DNA of 64,000 bases from Gammaproteobacteria bacterium Ga0077554 (GTDB taxonomy: Bacteria > Pseudomonadota > Gammaproteobacteria > Ga0077554 > Ga007554), in assembly GCA_001464585.1 (NCBI GenBank), contig LNFF01000032.1:1-64000 (forward strand). The letters are read 5' to 3'. The first letter of the stretch is position 1, and each line of letters starts with the position of its first letter. The notes under the pieces were generated by a model. The model saw only the letters and a program-made list of their open reading frames with translations. It did no database searches and was not told the origin of the DNA. A program made the position numbers and the translations under genes. Of the stretch, positions 18,146 to 64,000 are shown piece by piece.

Positions 18146-18901
18146 TTAGTCCTGCAGTAAATCAAATAATAAAACTTCCGCCGAACAGGGATGTTCAAGT
18201 GTCGTGTGAGGCAGGATGCCGGAAACGACTGCGCTGCTGTGCGTTAGCAATTCCAACGTTGGCTCGTCGATGATGCGCGCGCCATCACCGGTACTTAACA
18301 TGCGCCCGTTAAGTGTCACTTCACCGCGCGCCACATGCACATAAGCGCAGCGCTGCGCGGATAATTCATGCGTTACGCTATGTCCCGGATCAAGCACACT
18401 GGCATACACAAAAGCATCCTGGTAGATAGTCACTGAGCCGTGGCGCCCATCCGGCGATGCGATCAATTGTAAACGATTACGCTTTTGCTCTGCGGTAAAA
18501 TGTATTTGCTCATAGCTGGGCACGACATTAAGTTGATCAGGCACAATCCAAATCTGGAGAAAATGCAGTGGCTCGCTTCTGGAAGAATTATACTCGCTAT
18601 GCGTAATGCCCGTGCCCGCGCTCATGCGCTGCACATCACCGGGGTAAATGACAGAGCCATTCCCCATGCTGTCTTTATGCTCCAGACTCCCTTGCAATAC
18701 ATAGGTAATAATTTCCATGTCGCGGTGTCCGTGCGTGGGAAAACCGCCGCTCGCCGCCACCCGATCATCATTAATCACGCGCAGGCTGGAAAAGCCCATC
18801 TGCGCGGGGTCGTAATAGCTGGAAAAGGAAAAAGTGTGGTAGGTATCGAGCCAGCCGTGGTTGGCATGACCCCGTTCGTGGCTTTTGCGCAAGGTGATCA
18901 T
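18146..18901 (-). CDS. Pirin-family protein (YhhW-like) with a REP-like insert
   Basis: 251 residues of the bicupin pirin family; some members are quercetin dioxygenases. The N-terminal cupin holds the metal ligands in [17 protein letters not shown] (two His) and GITHSEYN (His and Glu). The family is about 231 residues. The extra length lies near the C-terminus, residues about 225-238 ([14 protein letters not shown]), just before the final strand EVLLFDLL, and is encoded by a dispersed 41-nt hairpin repeat. It is divergent from a LysR-type regulator, a common pairing. Confidence 0.88.
18189..18229 (+). repeat. Two-hairpin REP-like element, copy A (inside pirin gene)
   Basis: A 41-nt unit with core GAGGCAGGATGCCG. 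Nested stems are GTCGT/ACGAC outside and GGCA/TGCC with a GGA loop inside. The small upstream hairpin (GAACA/TGTTC) starts at 18184. It is read antisense within the pirin reading frame. Confidence 0.75.
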
Positions 18902-26165: not shown

Positions 26166-26268
26166 TGTCATTTCGACCAACGGGAGAAATCCTGGAAGAT
26201 CTCTCAAAGATCCCTCACCTTCGTTCGAGACTCGAGACAAGGATTTCTCCCGTTGGTCGAAATGACAG
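26166..26268. repeat. Palindromic repeat, TGTCATTTCGACC family, copy 1
   Basis: TGTCATTTCGACCAACGGGA and the inverted GGTCGAAATGACA form long arms around AGATCTCTCAAAGATC. Related copies are at 39444, 44099 and 55237, with short forms at 32721, 41324 and 52120. It sits between convergent genes. Confidence 0.85.
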
Positions 26269-26276
26269 CGCTCTAT

Positions 26277-39375: not shown

Positions 39376-39443
39376 AGCGGCAAGTTTATCAGCTATGGCT
39401 TGTGTGTGAGCAAGAATTCAAGGAACTTCTGATATGTGCTGGC

Positions 39444-39572
39444 TGTCATTTCGACCGCAGGGAGAAATCCTTGTCTCGAACGAATGTGAGGAGATCTTTG
39501 ATGTTGTTTGACCGTTTCAATGTTTGCCATTATTGACCATGGGCAAGATTTCTCGCTTCGCTCGAAATGACA
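39444..39572. repeat. Palindromic repeat, TGTCATTTCGACC family, copy 2
   Basis: Begins TGTCATTTCGACCGCAGGGA and ends GCTCGAAATGACA; 129 bp. The rest of the 39376-39593 gap has no gene. Confidence 0.8.
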
Positions 39573-39593
39573 CACATTCAGAGTTTAATTAAA

Positions 39594-44073: not shown

Positions 44074-44098
44074 CGGGGATCGTGGGCTCCTATTCCGC

Positions 44099-44182
44099 TG
44101 TCATTTCGACCAACGGGAGAAATCCTTGTCTCGAATGAAGGTGTGAGATCTCCACGGATTTCTCCCGTTGGTCGAAATGACA
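44099..44182. repeat. Palindromic repeat, TGTCATTTCGACC family, copy 3
   Basis: TGTCATTTCGACCAACGGGA ... GTTGGTCGAAATGACA, with AGATCT near the centre. Almost identical in arms to the copy at 26166. Confidence 0.85.
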
Positions 44183-44267
44183 TCCCCCTCGTTCCGTTGA
44201 CGTAAAATGTACCCGGCGTCATGAGGTAGCAAGTTAAAACTTTATCTGACCGGGTCAATAACACCCA

Positions 44268-48802: not shown

Positions 48803-49024
48803 TAAAAGCGGCGATTGAACCGTAGCGAGAAGGACTAAGATGCTGAAAATGTGCGAGAAAGTCACGAAAATATTCCGCCGCACATGGATGTGCAAGTGTC
48901 GTGGGAGGCAGGATGCCGTGAACGACCGCAGCCGTAGCACGGCTACGGTGAGGACAGATTTCGTGAGTTTCTCGCGCAGATTCAGTATATTAGACATTCG
49001 CAGTAGGTTCCAATCGCCGTTTTT
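48803..49024. repeat. Long imperfect palindrome with a nested REP-like element
   Basis: The left arm starts AAAAGCGGCGATTGAACC. The right arm read inversely starts AAAACGGCGATTGGAACC. The arms continue in parallel for about 70 bp (TGCTGAAAATGTGCGAGAAA versus TACTGAATCTGCGCGAGAAA). The centre holds REP-like copy B and a CCGTAGCACGGCTACGG hairpin. The end abuts the speE stop codon. A single-arm copy is at 9883. Confidence 0.7.
48886..48926 (+). repeat. Two-hairpin REP-like element, copy B
   Basis: Same 41-nt unit as at 18189, 58963 and 62137, with stems GTCGT/ACGAC and GGCA/TGCC. The upstream hairpin is GCACAT/ATGTGC. It lies in an intergenic palindrome. Confidence 0.75.
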
Positions 49025-55172: not shown

Positions 55173-55236
55173 ATTGTAATCTTTGGTTAGTTTTCCATAA
55201 TACTTGTCGCCCCGGAAATGCTGGATAAATTCGAGG

Positions 55237-55327
55237 TGTCATTTCGACCGCAGGGAGAAATCTTTGTCTCGAGTCTCGAACGAAGGTGAGAGATCTTTCA
55301 GGATTTCTCCCGCTGGTCGAAATGACA
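55237..55327. repeat. Palindromic repeat, TGTCATTTCGACC family, copy 4
   Basis: TGTCATTTCGACCGCAGGGA ... CTGGTCGAAATGACA. It lies upstream of the response regulator start. Confidence 0.8.
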
Positions 55328-55435
55328 GTCTGAATTTCCCTTAATGATACGACATACCCGTTAATATCCATATAGCCAGAAAACTAACTTTTATTTTTCA
55401 TGGGGTTAAACGCGCCCCGTCACAGCCCCCCCGGC

Positions 55436-56968: not shown

Positions 56969-58192
56969 TCATAAAATGTCCATAAATTCAATCCAATGCC
57001 GCACCGGCACGCTGGACTGACTTTGCAGATGGGTAAGGCATCCTATATTTGCCGTGGCGATCGCCGCTGGCACGCCGGATTGCAACGCATTCAACTTGTT
57101 GCGCAGCAATTGCTGGGAAAGGCCTTTTTGCAGTATGGCATACGTGCCTGCCGAGCCGCAACACAGATGCGCGTCCGGCACCGGGGTAAGCTCAAAGCCG
57201 GCGGTTATCAGGATTTTTTCCACCACGCCCGGCAACTGCTGCGCATGTTGTAAGCTGCAGGGGGAGTGAAAGGCAATTTTTTGTTTTTGATTTGCTGATG
57301 CCAGAGCCGACAAATCTTCCATCGCCACAATCTCGCTCAGATCCCGGCACAAGGCCGACACGCGCGCGGCCTTTTCTGCATAGGCAGGATCGTGCTGCAA
57401 AATATGGCCGTAATCTTTCACCAGCGTCCCGCAGCCGCTGGCGGTCATGACGATGGCTTCAATGCCACTCTGAATATGCGGCCACCAGGCATCAATATTA
57501 CGCCGCATGAAATCCAGGGCTTCATCATGCGCATTAAGATGATAACTGACGGCACCACAGCAACCCGCTTTATCTGCGCGTAGCAATGAAATGCCGAGGC
57601 GATCCAGCACGCGTGCCGCAGCCACATTAATATTCGGCGCGATGGCTGGCTGCACACAACCTTCCAGCACCAGCATGCGTCGCGCATGACGGGCTCCCGG
57701 CCATACAGGCCGCCATGCTGATACGAGTTGGCGGGGCGGCAACGAGTGCCGCAATGTTGCCGGCAATAGCGGACGCATAAATTGACCCAGCCGCAGTAAT
57801 GACGCAAAGCGTTGCGGGTGCGGGATCATCATGCGTAGCACTTTGCGCACCACACGCTCGCGCCATGGCCGCTGCACCTGCTGCTCGGCCACTACACGCC
57901 CGATATCCACGAGTCGACCGTATTCAACCCCCGAGGGACACGTGGTTTCGCAGGCACGGCACGTCAGGCAACGATCCAAATGTACCTGGGTCTTGCGCGT
58001 CACTGCATTGCCTTCGAGCATTTCCTTGATGAGATAAATGCGTCCGCGCGGCCCGTCCAGTTCATCGCCCAGCAACTGATAGGTGGGGCACGTGGCGGTG
58101 CAGAAACCGCAATGCACGCAGGTGCGCAAAATGCTCTCGGCCTCCTGGCCGTGCGCGGTATTTTTTATGGCATTAGTGAGTTGGGTTTGCAT
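56969..58192 (-). CDS. glcF: Glycolate oxidase iron-sulfur subunit
   Basis: 407 residues. Two ferredoxin-type clusters are near the N-terminus (CVHCGFCTATCPTY and CLTCRACETTCPSGV). Two CCG cysteine-rich domains follow (AGCCGAVSYHLN near 215; LCCGSAGTYAIL near 350). With GlcD and GlcE it oxidises glycolate to glyoxylate and passes electrons to the membrane. A GST gene, 9 bp upstream, separates it from glcE. Confidence 0.94.
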   Translation of the reverse strand: MQTQLTNAIKNTAHGQEAESILRTCVHCGFCTATCPTYQLLGDELDGPRGRIYLIKEMLEGNAVTRKTQVHLDRCLTCRACETTCPSGVEYGRLVDIGRVVAEQQVQRPWRERVVRKVLRMMIPHPQRFASLLRLGQFMRPLLPATLRHSLPPRQLVSAWRPVWPGARHARRMLVLEGCVQPAIAPNINVAAARVLDRLGISLLRADKAGCCGAVSYHLNAHDEALDFMRRNIDAWWPHIQSGIEAIVMTASGCGTLVKDYGHILQHDPAYAEKAARVSALCRDLSEIVAMEDLSALASANQKQKIAFHSPCSLQHAQQLPGVVEKILITAGFELTPVPDAHLCCGSAGTYAILQKGLSQQLLRNKLNALQSGVPAAIATANIGCLTHLQSQSSVPVRHWIEFMDIL

Positions 58193-58201
58193 TATTTCAG
58201 G

Positions 58202-58852
58202 TTAGTGCTCGTATTGTTCGATTATTTCTTTTTCGGCACGCGCCGCCGCATACCACTCCTGCATGGCGGGGAGCGCTTGCACGGCTTGCACATACGCGGC
58301 GGACACATTATCAAGTTGCACATCATAGGTGATAAATCGCGTTGTTACCGGGGCGTACATCGCATCCGCAATAGAAAACTGTCCGAATAAAAATGGGCCT
58401 TTTTTGCCAAAACGCGCACGGCAGTCGTTCCATAGTTGCTGAATACGGTCGATGTCTTCCTGCACACCGGACGCACGGCCTTTACCAGGGAAAACCTTTC
58501 GGCAATTCATCGTCATATTCTTGCGCAGATCAGTAAATCCGGAATGCATTTCCGCGCTCACTGAACGGGCTACGGCGCGTGCATCTTTATTGCTGGGCCA
58601 TAACAGATGATCAGGAAAACTCTCTGCCAGATATTCACAAATCGCCAATGAATCCCAGATAGCAAGATCGCCATCACGTAACGCAGGAACCTTACCGGAA
58701 GGTGAATAGGAAAGAATACTATCCCAATCGCTACTGTATAGCGGGATGCGTATTTCATTGAATGGGATTCCAGCGTGCTTCAATAGCAACCATGGACGCA
58801 ACGACCAGGATGAATAATTTTTATTGCCGATAATCAGTGTCAGTTCGTTCAT
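58202..58852 (-). CDS. Glutathione S-transferase family protein
   Basis: 216 residues with an N-terminal thioredoxin-fold domain (LTLIIGNKNYSSWSLRPWLLLKHAG, GKVPALRDGDLAIWDSLAICEYLAE) and an alpha-helical C-terminal domain (from about 90). AGGAG lies six bases before the ATG at 58852. It sits between glcE (203 bp upstream) and glcF (9 bp downstream) on the same strand. A role in detoxifying glyoxylate-related aldehydes or carrying glutathione adducts is possible, but inferred. Confidence 0.88.
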   Translation of the reverse strand: MNELTLIIGNKNYSSWSLRPWLLLKHAGIPFNEIRIPLYSSDWDSILSYSPSGKVPALRDGDLAIWDSLAICEYLAESFPDHLLWPSNKDARAVARSVSAEMHSGFTDLRKNMTMNCRKVFPGKGRASGVQEDIDRIQQLWNDCRARFGKKGPFLFGQFSIADAMYAPVTTRFITYDVQLDNVSAAYVQAVQALPAMQEWYAAARAEKEIIEQYEH

Positions 58853-58962
58853 CTCACTCTCCTGTTGATGGCGCATGAAACAATGTATTGTGTTGCTACG
58901 CGTCGTGCATGGATGGCGGTTCCTGCGCATCCCTGCGCTCACCGTACTTGGGCATCCTGCCC

Positions 58963-59002
58963 GGCGCACAAGTGCCGCGAGAGGCAGGATGCCGGAAGCG
59001 GC
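58963..59002 (+). repeat. Two-hairpin REP-like element, copy C
   Basis: Same unit as at 18189, with outer stem GCCGC/GCGGC and inner GGCA/TGCC. A short GGGCA-TCC-TGCCC hairpin precedes it. It lies in the glcE-gst gap. Confidence 0.75.
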
Positions 59003-59054
59003 CAACGCTTGGTGGGCTTGGAGCCCACCCTACATTTGGCACCCATTTTACGAA

Positions 59055-60137
59055 TTACCAATCCGCATACATTCGTCCGCGATTGAGAATGCCGTGGGGG
59101 TCAAACTCTGCTTTGAGGCGTTGGTGCAATGCCATTAATGCGGGAGACAGTGGATGGAATATTTGCCCTTGTGGCCCTTGTAAACCGCTACCGCGAAACA
59201 GTGTTGCATGCCCTTTTGCGGCAGCCACTCTTTCACGCACTGCTTCACTCGCCATTGACGTTTTCAACCAGCGTTGCGCGCCACCCCACTCTATCAACCA
59301 GGAACCCGATATATCAATGAGCGGTGTAGCAGGGGGCACGGAGATACGCCATAGTGATGAATCACCCTGAAAAAACACATGCGCATGGTCGCGCACACTC
59401 GACCATAGCGCATCACTCTCCGCCAAAGATTCACCACCCAGATTCCTGCACGCTTCTGACAAACCTGCGTGGCTCCCCGACAAGCGTATATAGAGTTGTC
59501 CGTCAGCAAACATTGCCGCAGACAACGGTAATGACTGGCCTGCCCAGGCATTCATGCGGCGTATCGCTTCCTGCACGTCGCAGGAAAAAACCTGGGTTTT
59601 TTCTGACTCGGCTTTGGGCAGGACTTTCAGGGAAATTTCCAGCAGCACACCTAATGTGCCCAACGCGCCCACCATCAGGCGCGACACATCAAATCCCGCG
59701 ACATTTTTCATCACCTGCCCGCCAAATTTCAGGATCTCACCCTTACCGGTCAGCACTTTCACACCCAGCACAACATCGCGTACACTGCCTGCATAGGGTC
59801 GGCGCGGCCCGGAAAAACCACAGGCGATCGTGCCGCCTAGCGTGTCTTCAGCCTGTGCGCCAAAATACGGCGGCTCGAAGGGTAACATCTGCCCCTGTGT
59901 CGCCAGCAGCGCCTCGATTTCAGCAAGTGATGAGCCAGCGCGCGCGGTGATAACTAATTCTGTAGGCTCATAGCTGATCACCCCGCAATGACCCGCAACT
60001 GATAGTGGCTCGCTTACATCGGCGCGGCCATAGAAGGCTTTTGTATTTCGACCAACGATTCGCATGGGAATATGTTGTGCAATGGCATCCAGCACTTTTT
60101 CCTGTAGCACAGAACTGATGTCAGCATTAGCGGCCAT
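59055..60137 (-). CDS. glcE: Glycolate oxidase FAD-binding subunit
   Basis: 360 residues. The FAD-binding part includes LAEIEALLATQGQMLPFEPPYFGAQAEDTLGGTIACGFSGPRRPYAGSVRDVVLGVKVLTGKGE. The C-terminal domain ends FDPHGILNRGRMYADW. It forms the glycolate oxidase with GlcD and GlcF. Its ATG shares one base with the glcD stop (TGATG), so it is tightly coupled. Confidence 0.94.
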   Translation of the reverse strand: MAANADISSVLQEKVLDAIAQHIPMRIVGRNTKAFYGRADVSEPLSVAGHCGVISYEPTELVITARAGSSLAEIEALLATQGQMLPFEPPYFGAQAEDTLGGTIACGFSGPRRPYAGSVRDVVLGVKVLTGKGEILKFGGQVMKNVAGFDVSRLMVGALGTLGVLLEISLKVLPKAESEKTQVFSCDVQEAIRRMNAWAGQSLPLSAAMFADGQLYIRLSGSHAGLSEACRNLGGESLAESDALWSSVRDHAHVFFQGDSSLWRISVPPATPLIDISGSWLIEWGGAQRWLKTSMASEAVRERVAAAKGHATLFRGSGLQGPQGQIFHPLSPALMALHQRLKAEFDPHGILNRGRMYADW

Positions 60138-61606
60138 CAGAAACGCTCCAGCCCAGGAAAAGGCAGCGCACCTTTATGCACATGCATGGCGCCGAATTCC
60201 GCGCAACGATGCAGTGTCGGCACGGCCTTGCCGGGATTGAGCAAACCTTGCGGATCAAACGCGTGCTTTACCGCATGGAACTGCGCCAATTCCTGCGGCG
60301 CGAATTGCACACACATTTGTCCAATTTTCTCTACGCCTACACCATGTTCGCCAGTGATCGTACCGCCTACTGCAATACACAGCTCAAGGATTTTTCCGCC
60401 GAATTCCTCGGTGCGCTCCAGCTCGCCAGGTTTGTTCGCATCATAAAGAATCAGTGGATGCAAATTACCGTCACCAGCATGAAATACATTGGCAACCGGC
60501 AACTGATATTCAGCGGAAAGTTCCGCGATACGCTTCAATACTTCGGGTAAGCGCTTGCGTGGAATGGTGCCATCCATGCAGTAATAATCAGGCGACAACC
60601 GTCCTACCGCAGGAAATGCGGCCTTGCGGCCCGCCCAGAATTTCAGGCGCTCGGCATCATCACGTGCGGTGCGCACTTGCGTTGCACCCGCCACTTGCAA
60701 CAATTCACGCACCCGCAAAATCTGCTCGGAGACTTCTTCATTGGTACCATCCAATTCACACAACAAGATGGCGGCGGCATCAACCGGATAACCGGCATGC
60801 ACGAACGCTTCAGCAGCGCGGATTGCCGGGTTGTCCATCATTTCCAATCCTCCAGGAATGATTCCGGCGCTAATGATGTCCCCCACCGCCGCACCCGCTT
60901 TGACTACATCATCAAACGCCGCCAGCACCACTTGCGCACGCTCGGGCTTTGGTAATAACTTCACGGTGACTTCTACAATCACGCCCAGTAAACCTTCCGA
61001 ACCTGTCATCAATGCCAGTAGATCATAGCCCGGCGAATCAAGCGTCGCGCCGCCGATTTCAAGCAATTCGCCGTCCATCGCCAACACTTTTAAACCCAAC
61101 ACATTATGCACGGTGAGGCCATACTTCAAGCAATGCACGCCACCGGAATTTTCCGCAACATTACCGCCGATAGTGCAGGCGATCTGTGATGATGGATCAG
61201 GCGCATAATACAAACCATAGGGCGCGGCAGCCTGCGAGATAGCAAGATTTCTCACACCGGGCTGCACACGCGCGATACGGTTCGCGGTATCAATTTCCAG
61301 AATGCACATGAATTTCGCAAGACTCAGCAGCACGCCATTTTTCAGCGGCAATGCACCACCGGATAAACCCGTGCCCGCGCCACGCGCCACGACCGGCACC
61401 TGCATTTTGTAACATACACGCAAGATCGCTTGCACCTGTTCAATGGTATGCGGCAAGCACACGATCATCGGCAATTCACGATAGGCAGACAGGCCATCAC
61501 ACTCGTAAGGGCGCAGATCTTCGGTTTCGCAGAGGACTGCATCGGCAGGGAGGATGCGGTGCAATGCGGCCAGTAATGTTTGCTTGTCAAAGGATAGCAT
61601 TGTCAT
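60137..61606 (-). CDS. glcD: Glycolate oxidase catalytic FAD subunit
   Basis: 489 residues, FAD-linked oxidase of the D-lactate/glycolate type. The FAD fold includes VVARGAGTGLSGGALPLKNGVLLSLAKF, IGGNVAENSGGVHCLKYGLT, and LMTGSEGLLGVIVEVTVKLLPKP. The C-terminal metal/active-site motif is VFHAGDGNLHP, with GTITGEHGVGVEK near 415. It oxidises glycolate (and perhaps D-lactate) to glyoxylate. Its start is 6 bp after the kinase stop. Confidence 0.95.
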   Translation of the reverse strand: MTMLSFDKQTLLAALHRILPADAVLCETEDLRPYECDGLSAYRELPMIVCLPHTIEQVQAILRVCYKMQVPVVARGAGTGLSGGALPLKNGVLLSLAKFMCILEIDTANRIARVQPGVRNLAISQAAAPYGLYYAPDPSSQIACTIGGNVAENSGGVHCLKYGLTVHNVLGLKVLAMDGELLEIGGATLDSPGYDLLALMTGSEGLLGVIVEVTVKLLPKPERAQVVLAAFDDVVKAGAAVGDIISAGIIPGGLEMMDNPAIRAAEAFVHAGYPVDAAAILLCELDGTNEEVSEQILRVRELLQVAGATQVRTARDDAERLKFWAGRKAAFPAVGRLSPDYYCMDGTIPRKRLPEVLKRIAELSAEYQLPVANVFHAGDGNLHPLILYDANKPGELERTEEFGGKILELCIAVGGTITGEHGVGVEKIGQMCVQFAPQELAQFHAVKHAFDPQGLLNPGKAVPTLHRCAEFGAMHVHKGALPFPGLERF

Positions 61607-61612
61607 GGCGAA

Positions 61613-62971
61613 TCAATGCTGGGAAAAGCGCCGATACACCAACGCCAGCGCATCATCATCGCCCACGTTACCGGGGAAAATCACCACAGGCAATTCGGGA
61701 AAGCGCGGATGATCGGCGGGGCAACGCACGACTGACACACCGGGAGCCACCTGGCCAAGCACGCGCGCCGCGCGCAAGGCAAGGCCGCTGCTGAGCATGT
61801 CATTGGAGGTGATGCCACCCTTGCCGATCAGAAAACCCAGATCTTGCGGCAGGTTGCGGATCACATCCATGAGCAGTGCGGACACCGCTTCACCGAACGC
61901 CAGGCGTGCGGCTTGATCAGCAAACTGCACTTCGCCACGGCTGGTATAAACAACGGATGTTTTACCCATAGCAAAGACAACTTCGGCCTGATGTAATACA
62001 GTTTTCAATACCTGCCCAGGCTGTTCTGTAATTTTCCGCACATCCACCTCAATACCTACCACGCCTGGCTCTTGTAACAAGCGCGCAAGTTGGCGGCTGC
62101 TCTTTTCAACATGCGAACCGACAATCACTGCACCGGGTCGCTTCCGGCATCCTGCCTCCCGCGACACTAGCACATCCTTGTGCGTCGCACGCGCACCGCG
62201 CGTAAAGCGGCCCATCGCTTCCGCAGGCACAGGCTGCGGCGGCAGATTGGCCAGCGCCTTCACCAGGCTGGCGGCGCTGCGAAACAGAAAGCGTTTGCCT
62301 TGTGCGGCCGCCGCACGCACGTCTGCCGTGAAACGCGCCAGATCCTCATAATTTTCGGCATCGACAACACCGCACTGATTTTCTTGCAGCACCAACAATC
62401 TGCTCAACACGCCGTTACGGATATCCTCCAGTAAAAAACGCTCAACGCTGTGCGCGGCAATGCGACCCTGGGTTTTTTCGGCAACATAATCCGGTAAAAA
62501 ACTATGGCTATAACCAAACACTGAATCGCGCGCGAATTCAGTTTCATGCACGGGCACATCCACGCCATTAACTTTCAGATAATGAATGCTGTCACGCGTG
62601 ACGCGCCCGCCTTCAAAAAAAGCGGGCACCAGAAAGTGTGCGTCAAATGGGCCTAATTCCTCAGCAATAACATCGGTTTCTACGGGATAATGACCACGCA
62701 ACGTGGAATCAGAACGGCTCACCAATACCGGGTTAATGGCCGTCGTTTTCAGGGCGATTTTCAGGTTATGGCACACTTCACGCGTGACATCCGCCGCGCA
62801 CGCCGCATCCATGCCACGGGTATTGGTAAGCACGAAGAACAGCGGTGCGGCATCAGTCAATGCTTCTTTAAGCGTGGCCACATCCCAGCGCGTCAGTAGT
62901 AAACAGCCGTGAACCGTCTGTGAACCGGTGGGGTCGTCGTCGAGGACGATGATTTTGGTGGTATTGGTCAT
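61613..62971 (-). CDS. Four-carbon acid sugar kinase (DUF1537 family) with REP-like insert
   Basis: 452 residues. The DUF1537 N-domain begins KIIVLDDDPTGSQTVHG and has LVSRSDSTLRGHYPVE. The C-terminal nucleotide domain has AVIVGSHVEKSSRQLARL, FLIGKGGITSNDMLSSGLAL and VVIFPGNVGDDDAL. Known relatives (OtnK, DtnK) phosphorylate tetronate-type acids; this substrate is unknown. Residues about 266-278 (VLVSREAGCRKRP, just before AVIVGSHV) are encoded by a REP-like repeat and have no clear counterpart in the family. GGAGG is six bases before the ATG. Confidence 0.85.
   Translation of the reverse strand: MTNTTKIIVLDDDPTGSQTVHGCLLLTRWDVATLKEALTDAAPLFFVLTNTRGMDAACAADVTREVCHNLKIALKTTAINPVLVSRSDSTLRGHYPVETDVIAEELGPFDAHFLVPAFFEGGRVTRDSIHYLKVNGVDVPVHETEFARDSVFGYSHSFLPDYVAEKTQGRIAAHSVERFLLEDIRNGVLSRLLVLQENQCGVVDAENYEDLARFTADVRAAAAQGKRFLFRSAASLVKALANLPPQPVPAEAMGRFTRGARATHKDVLVSREAGCRKRPGAVIVGSHVEKSSRQLARLLQEPGVVGIEVDVRKITEQPGQVLKTVLHQAEVVFAMGKTSVVYTSRGEVQFADQAARLAFGEAVSALLMDVIRNLPQDLGFLIGKGGITSNDMLSSGLALRAARVLGQVAPGVSVVRCPADHPRFPELPVVIFPGNVGDDDALALVYRRFSQH
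62137..62177 (-). repeat. Two-hairpin REP-like element, copy D (inside DUF1537 kinase)
   Basis: On the minus strand: outer stem GTCGC/GCGAC, inner GGCA/TGCC, core GAGGCAGGATGCCG, upstream hairpin GCACA/TGTGC. It is read sense within the kinase reading frame (DVLVSREAGCRKRP). Confidence 0.75.
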
Positions 62972-62983
62972 GCTATACCTCCC

Positions 62984-63017
62984 TTTCCCCCGCTCCCGCG
63001 TGCGGGAGAGGGGGAAA
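62984..63017. repeat. Inverted repeat between the phosphoketolase-like and kinase genes
   Basis: 16-bp arms TTTCCCCCGCTCCCGC / GCGGGAGAGGGGGAAA with one mismatch and a 2-base loop, 13 bp before the kinase ATG. It could affect kinase translation or act as a weak internal terminator. Confidence 0.6.
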
Positions 63018-63029
63018 TTGGTCGTTAAA

Positions 63030-64000
63030 TTAGACAGCCACCAACTCCTGCGCGCGACGCGCCAGATTATCACCTGTTAAACCATTAAAACCCATAATCT
63101 CCGCGGGCGATGCGGTGGTCTCGCCGCGTTTCCAGGCAAACACATCGCGTTTAGCGGCGCGTGCGCGCAGCATGACAGGCTCCAATGTTGCACTTGGGCC
63201 ACCGCTTACGCCCAGTAATACATCGCCATCAAACAGGGCATTGAAGTGGTCATCATCAAGAAACTGATTGTCTGCCTCGGCACAGGTGTCCCACGCTACA
63301 TCGGTGGGGCGATACAGGCGGCGCGGATTAACTACGGCAACAATCTTTACACCAAAGCCAGCCGCTTTCAATTTCTCGGCGGCTTCAAATACCGGCAGCA
63401 GAATCATGTCACCCACCACCGCGAAGACTACTGTTTTCGCACCTTTATGCTCCAACAAAGTAATCGCCCCGTCAGCCAATGCACAGCGACTTTGTTCCAG
63501 TGTAGTGCGCACCGGCAACGGGCTTTTCGATGCAGTAATAACGATGCCCTTGTTGAATGTTTCCAATGCCCACGCATACGCCACTTGAATCATGTTGGCG
63601 TCCACCGGGAACAGCGGGAATATATTGCCATTACGCATCATGGCCGCGAAATACGCTTCAATTTCCGGGCGCTGGTGTGTCCAGCCATTGCGCCCCTGCT
63701 CTAACGCACCCGCCGTAAACAATGTGACGGTGCTGGGGGTCTTGCGGCGTAGCTCGGCCATGGCCTGCGTTACGGTTTGCCAGATCGGCAAGCCGTTAAT
63801 GGCAAAACTTTCATACGAACACCACAGGCTGCGCCCGCCAAACAAAGACAGCGCGACGGCGAGGCCCGCACACGCATCTTCATTGAGCGGCTCATACACC
63901 TGACCATGCGGCGCTTGATGATACAGCGCATCTTCGGTGGGATGGCGAATCTTTAACGCTTCGTTGATGTTGCCTATCGCTGACGCTTCATTACCATCGG
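63030..64000 (-). CDS. Phosphoketolase-like protein, C-terminal part (cut by window end)
   Basis: At least 323 residues, open through the window edge (IRHPTEDALYHQAPHGQVYEPLNED continues upstream). Family words are CSYESFAINGLPIWQTVTQAMA, NGWTHQRPEIEAYFAAM, FPVDANMIQVAYAWALET and VKIVAVVNPRRLYRP, which match the C-terminal half of xylulose/fructose-6-phosphate phosphoketolases (NGFxHQ, PPDANxxL, VVNVVDLMRL). It is divergent from classic XFP, so the substrate is uncertain. The enzyme would split ketose phosphates to acetyl phosphate plus an aldose phosphate. It is the first visible gene of the kinase-glcDE cluster. Confidence 0.75.
   Translation of the reverse strand, partial: DGNEASAIGNINEALKIRHPTEDALYHQAPHGQVYEPLNEDACAGLAVALSLFGGRSLWCSYESFAINGLPIWQTVTQAMAELRRKTPSTVTLFTAGALEQGRNGWTHQRPEIEAYFAAMMRNGNIFPLFPVDANMIQVAYAWALETFNKGIVITASKSPLPVRTTLEQSRCALADGAITLLEHKGAKTVVFAVVGDMILLPVFEAAEKLKAAGFGVKIVAVVNPRRLYRPTDVAWDTCAEADNQFLDDDHFNALFDGDVLLGVSGGPSATLEPVMLRARAAKRDVFAWKRGETTASPAEIMGFNGLTGDNLARRAQELVAV

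Follow-up and report, generated by a model that had tools for sequence, protein, structure and literature searches.

Rickettsia is the best-known source of palindromic sequences inserted in frame into protein-coding genes, and its small populations could account for their persistence there. The classic case is that of the Rickettsia palindromic elements (RPE-1 and others; Ogata 2000, 2002), whose length in R. conorii is about 150 bp according to PMC10969869. A second comparison is offered by the GTAG/CGTC-tagged REPs described by Di Nocera 2013 (PMC3733652), most of which are intergenic, some copies being intragenic in O. terrae, R. conorii, Thauera, Thioalkalivibrio and others, with REP-decorated ORFs in several species. 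Intragenic REPs are already known; what sets the element described here apart is its length, its architecture, its host range and the high share of its copies that lie in coding sequence. An exact-sequence literature search returned nothing relevant to it.

The window, that is, the whole stretch of DNA analysed, covers 64,000 nucleotides of contig LNFF01000032.1 from Gammaproteobacteria bacterium Ga0077554, and near its end a kinase gene carries the copy from which this study starts:

61616–62971, minus strand: host gene, a two-domain DUF1537 kinase with SBD_N (PF07005) and NBD_C (PF17042), identified by Pfam and Foldseek and assessed by dN/dS.
62137–62187, minus strand: the 51-nt hairpin element within the kinase gene, 17 codons long (covariance-model match of 79.5 bits; empty site in sister species G002, net +51 nt).
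62138–62188, minus strand: the inserted codons, residues 262–278, ATHKDVLVSREAGCRKR (protein alignment with homologues; residue numbering).

The kinase ORF encodes 452 aa, with SBD_N at residues 7–240 and NBD_C at residues 281–442, and the Foldseek matches of its structural model are the DUF1537 structures 4xgj, 5dmh, 1yzy and 3dqq. The reading frame passes through the element in its coding sense as ...GAR-ATHKDVLVSREAGCRKR-PGAVIVGSHV, and the inserted residues sit between the two Pfam domains. In a protein alignment of homologues, mostly 60–84% identical and some of them one gene fetched twice, the ATHKDVLVSREAGCRKR peptide was missing from all other than the window's own locus and most showed a clean 17-residue gap opposite it, ruling out a general DUF1537 segment. 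At the DNA level the same-genus sister G002 has a base-exact empty site, GGCGCACG/ACCTGGTGCG, in place of the 51 nt. At the insertion point a few homologues contain 4 additional, unrelated residues and the sister G001 contains 11, so this linker tolerates changes in length. Residues 261–275 fall below a pLDDT of 50 in an AlphaFold model with a mean of 85.1, flanked by a helix (250–256) and a strand (281–284); the insert most likely forms a disordered loop where the two domains meet, in keeping with its tolerance. The kinase has a dN/dS of about 0.1 against the sister species, and this, with its intact motifs, rules out a dead gene as the reason for the kept frame; we infer that the insert is translated and that the kinase is still active.

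The initial annotation had proposed a REP-like element, its copy D at 62127–62188, inserted in frame at residues of about 262–280 and comparable in kind to the Rickettsia elements. The repeat is indeed there and occupies the residues estimated, but the span given overshot it by about 10 bases at one end, and the label "REP-like" fits a real repeat poorly in that it has two hairpins, not one palindrome, and does not avoid genes. The insertion itself was borne out by the gap in relatives and the empty site in G002, homologues with the same residues and no repeat were not seen, and the surface loop that had been raised as a question corresponds to the low-confidence segment between the two domains.

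Further copies that had been listed for the window were recovered as well:

18179–18229, plus strand: full-length copy, read in frame in an ORF of the minus strand close to the C-terminal end, encoding a 17-residue peptide (covariance-model match).
48876–48926, plus strand: full-length copy, through which a convincing ORF was not found (BLAST, covariance model, ORF check).
58967–59003, plus strand: partial copy (element positions 16–52), adjoining a second, related 51-nt type upstream of a glutathione-S-transferase-like ORF.

Beyond the window, BLAST gave 43 matches to the element in the same genome, the next best at 94% identity, and covariance model R1 found at least 135 copies at E<=0.01, ruling out a chance repeat. 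The same model counted 137 copies in G002, 41 in G001, 17–64 in other family members and 1 in G004, all these counts being lower bounds, with 150 candidates scored per genome. The element is mostly genic: among 62 copies (near-full-length best matches sampled locus by locus from draft genomes, with our own ORF-based gene calls), 39 lie in frame inside ORFs, 6 are placed at ORF ends and the other 17 are either intergenic or unclear, putting 45/62 within ORFs or at their ends. "Inside" here required at least 20 open codons on both sides, and hexamer coding scores were taken from the flanks only. Host genes named by NCBIfam include pheT, hflD, kdsD, queE, ygfZ, rimO, gpsA, an amiC-like amidase, a family-4 uracil-DNA glycosylase, smc, cysE, waaA, alr, ispE, argA, purH and aroQ; in some of them, for instance kdsD, waaA and udg, the element sits close to an end of the gene or is intermixed with repeats of other kinds. 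When orthologues from G001, G002, G003, G006 and G007 were aligned, clean insertions were seen in conserved genes, with a net gain of exactly 51 nt in clean single cases and 69 nt in an aroQ variant, and the host genes are under purifying selection (dN/dS about 0.03–0.2). The window genome and G002 have copies in common in a methyltransferase-like gene, smc, cysE and one unnamed gene; most others are unshared, and since most insertions are lineage-specific the family has been active since the sister species split.

These many further in-frame insertions justify the comparison with the Rickettsia elements. Both are short hairpin repeats lying in frame in unrelated housekeeping genes and adding a peptide, with empty sites in relatives in the present case, whereas the element differs from RPEs by description in its 51 nt as against about 150 bp, its two hairpins, its use of four frames and both orientations, and its occurrence in Gammaproteobacteria. 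The best reading of this comparison is that it would work like an RPE without being one. With the tagged REPs it has in common dispersed hairpin repeats, some genic copies and tolerated insertions, but it is mostly inside genes and forms a fixed 17-codon unit. Of the two tags, which stand unpaired at one end of the hairpin, GTAG is absent from the element consensus, the termini being CG(C/A)C and GCGAC; the reverse strand ends in CGTCG in about a third of copies, with one base of CGTC within the stem.

Matches at E<=1e-6 were present in 32 of 229 sampled Gammaproteobacteria (about 14%), in 29 genera. In-frame copies outside the genus lie in what we take, by sequence recognition, to be ValRS and MurD genes, with one copy in a presumed AspRS gene of the sister G001. 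In one Lonsdalea populi plasmid a DNA primase gene contains, in frame, a divergent copy whose stems differ and whose loops, CAGGGATG and CAGGATG, are identical. Apart from this single plasmid match, phages and E. coli genomes gave no element match and viral contigs no exact match to a 39-base core pattern, by which an origin from phage or E. coli was ruled out.

The consensus, CG(C/A)CGCACANGGATGTGCWAGTGTCGCGGGAGGCAGGATGCCGGAAGCGAC, forms two hairpins, located in the kinase copy as follows:

62170–62183, minus strand: hairpin 1, GCACA-AGGA-TGTGC, with a loop of C-ANGGAN-G type (folds; compensatory changes over 36 copies; loop table).
62137–62165, minus strand: hairpin 2, with a GTCGC/GCGAC outer stem, purine internal loops, a GGCA-GGA-TGCC inner stem and a CAGGATG loop (folds; covariation; loop table).

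Hairpin 1 can be drawn as 5 bp with an NGGA loop, but a C-G-closed ANGGAN hexaloop is the more accurate description, because A9 is invariant and its partner is not; hairpin 2 has a 5-bp outer and a 4-bp inner stem and a GGA loop. Fold z-scores of the element are -2.6 as RNA and -3.2 as DNA. Over 36 copies, 96.6% of cells are paired, a figure that favours the model because the structure was derived from one of those copies, whereas the double changes (7 pairs changed on both sides, in 42 cells) are unaffected by this; none of 500 shuffles reached any of the measures and slid controls were far lower. G-T pairs outnumber A-C pairs by 14 to 4, an excess suggesting that it is the strand as written that is structured. 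The hairpin 1 loop is ANGGAN in 35/36 copies and C-G-closed in 33/36, with the A and GGA fixed and both N positions variable, and that of hairpin 2 is CAGGATG in 34/36. An Rfam search with the element gave no match, and a known RNA family was ruled out on that basis.

Mobile elements of the IS200/IS605 type insert as a single strand, leaving no target duplication, next to a short target that is fixed in sequence and lies 5' of the element. Comparison of empty and filled sites revealed no target duplication, and the flanks of the 62 copies show a weak preference for C at -4 and T at -2 (C-N-T-N) 5' of the element and a 3' C in 55/62, a pattern that resembles single-strand insertion of this kind. 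IS200/IS605 derivatives and RAYT/REP systems likewise have terminal hairpins, no target duplication, a short flank preference and one structured strand, but here no element-flanked transposase gene was found: none of the 20 Y1 loci scanned was flanked by complete elements, so that a flanking RAYT gene was rejected as the source, and an autonomous form of the element was not found. Y1_Tnp genes occur in G000 and all through the family, and in 19/20 element-positive as compared to 10/20 element-negative genomes (Fisher p=0.003, uncorrected for genome size or ancestry), and from these observations we infer a Y1 transposase as the mobiliser.

Our preferred reading, to which we give a probability of roughly 80%, is that this is a non-autonomous mobile element built on hairpins, which genes tolerate and which an IS200/IS605-like Y1 transposase probably moves in trans. 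The 51-nt unit would fold as single-stranded DNA (or RNA) into its two hairpins and most likely move as a single strand, with a Y1 transposase (IS200/IS605, RAYT-like) acting in trans, and would insert without target duplication next to the weak C-N-T-N on its 5' side and C on its 3' side. Insertion into a gene would then add 17 residues instead of causing a frameshift, as the unit is 17 codons long and free of stops in most frames, and copies falling in linkers or surface loops, such as the inter-domain linker of the kinase, would be retained by the host.

The constancy of the loops also allows a regulatory interpretation, in which the element is a mobile CsrA/RsmA-binding RNA module whose sense transcript would display a pair of GGA hairpins, so that host mRNAs come under Csr control or CsrA is titrated. 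For CsrA/RsmE, SELEX has given the consensus RUACARGGAUGU and NMR a stem-borne ANGGAN motif, AGGAN being a weaker form (PMC7652899, PMC4005645). Both near-invariant loops match this published consensus and remain constant while the stems vary as far away as other families and the Lonsdalea plasmid. CsrA is encoded once in each of 8 family genomes, and the G-T excess fits a single structured strand. Like hairpins of the CsrB/RsmZ type, the element presents ANGGAN and AGGAN loops on C-G-closed stems, but it is dispersed in coding genes in both orientations, is not an sRNA gene and drew a blank in Rfam. Genic copies, moreover, are unbiased in orientation (22 sense, 17 antisense, p=0.52), and hairpins read by a transposase would have fixed loops just the same. 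A CsrA role is possible, but as the explanation of the element we think it unlikely. Slightly more doubtful still is its boldest form, a selfish RNA-binding site that packs two putative CsrA/RsmA-binding hairpins into 51 nt and spreads in frame, decorating proteins as it goes, with sense copies wiring or titrating Csr genome-wide.

The encoded peptide might itself have been selected, as a useful linker or interaction segment. Two frames hold 29 of the 39 internal copies (ASVAGGRMPEA-like in 16, VASGILPPATLVHPC-like in 13), and frame use overall (16, 13, 6, 4, 0, 0) stays uneven after weighting for openness (chi-square p=3e-5). Yet the copies, which lie in unrelated proteins, make use of at least four frames and of both orientations, most insertions are missing in sister species, and the weeding out of badly tolerated frames is a simpler account of the bias; we consider selection of the peptide very improbable. 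Our reading of the frame bias is random insertion followed by loss of such frames, to which a codon-phase preference of the target could add. Element copies are open in all six frames in 42% of cases as compared to 14% of dinucleotide shuffles, and it is the length of exactly 17 codons and the lack of stops in most frames that would make the element tolerable in genes. An assembly error as the origin of the pattern, or loss by the relatives of an ancestral segment, may be dismissed, draft status (44 contigs) of the window genome notwithstanding, since the pattern recurs across many contigs and several species and all outgroups are without the segment.

For this bacterium, then, mobile DNA appears to be routinely written into housekeeping protein genes, and in-frame insertion on a large scale extends to Gammaproteobacteria with genomes of 2–3 Mb and base-exact empty sites in sisters. 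Those empty sites and the dozens of natural cases make it possible to measure how well enzymes tolerate a standard insertion of 17 residues, the CsrA-like loops provide a testable link from mobile DNA to a global RNA regulator, and annotation pipelines will misread the inserted segments as real protein features.

Comparison of copies between genomes yielded several smaller observations. The orthologous smc copies of G000 and G002 (L199 1692–1742 and L028 1498–1548) differ in hairpin 1, where both partners of one pair have changed in a compensatory way (GCAC/GTGC versus GTAC/GTAC), a hint of constraint in place or of conversion between copies. At one shared site (L004 about 1501–1551, L225 1206–1262) hairpin 1 of the G002 copy is replaced by a longer version, GGGGAAGGGTTCTGC, in frame. 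A Y1 transposase-like ORF of G002 (L145 about 1680–1766, G002:C43) contains a partial element copy or copies.

The sister kinases have also been hit repeatedly. The G002 gene, in which the window's copy is missing, has an inverted copy of the element some 44 codons downstream (AVAPGILPPATLVHPCTS) and, near residue 197, a 51-nt repeat of a second type with related architecture (SGGSSCASLHPLHLGILP). As we read the sequence, the 11 residues found in G001 resemble what is left of this second type, at the very linker that holds the window's insertion. One kinase gene thus shows about four in-frame events among three sister species. The second type has the two-hairpin plan of the first with the GGA loops in swapped order (GGGCAGGATGCCC, then TGCAGGGATGCA); it is found at L031 3563–3613 (minus strand), at about 58920–58971 in the window and in frame in the G002 kinase, and often abuts the first type.

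Two further features of the window may be recorded. A second dispersed inverted-repeat family, TGTCATTTCGACC...GGGAGAAATCCT and complement, occurs at 26166–26274, 39442–39579, 44097–44189 and 55235–55334, with arms of about 28–41 nt and 24–70 nt between them. The gene order at 56969–63998 (glcF-like iron-sulfur protein, glutathione-S-transferase-like, glcE-like, glcD-like oxidase, DUF1537 kinase, C-terminal part of a phosphoketolase-like protein; names, the kinase excepted, by sequence reading) suggests an operon for a glycolate or sugar-acid pathway.
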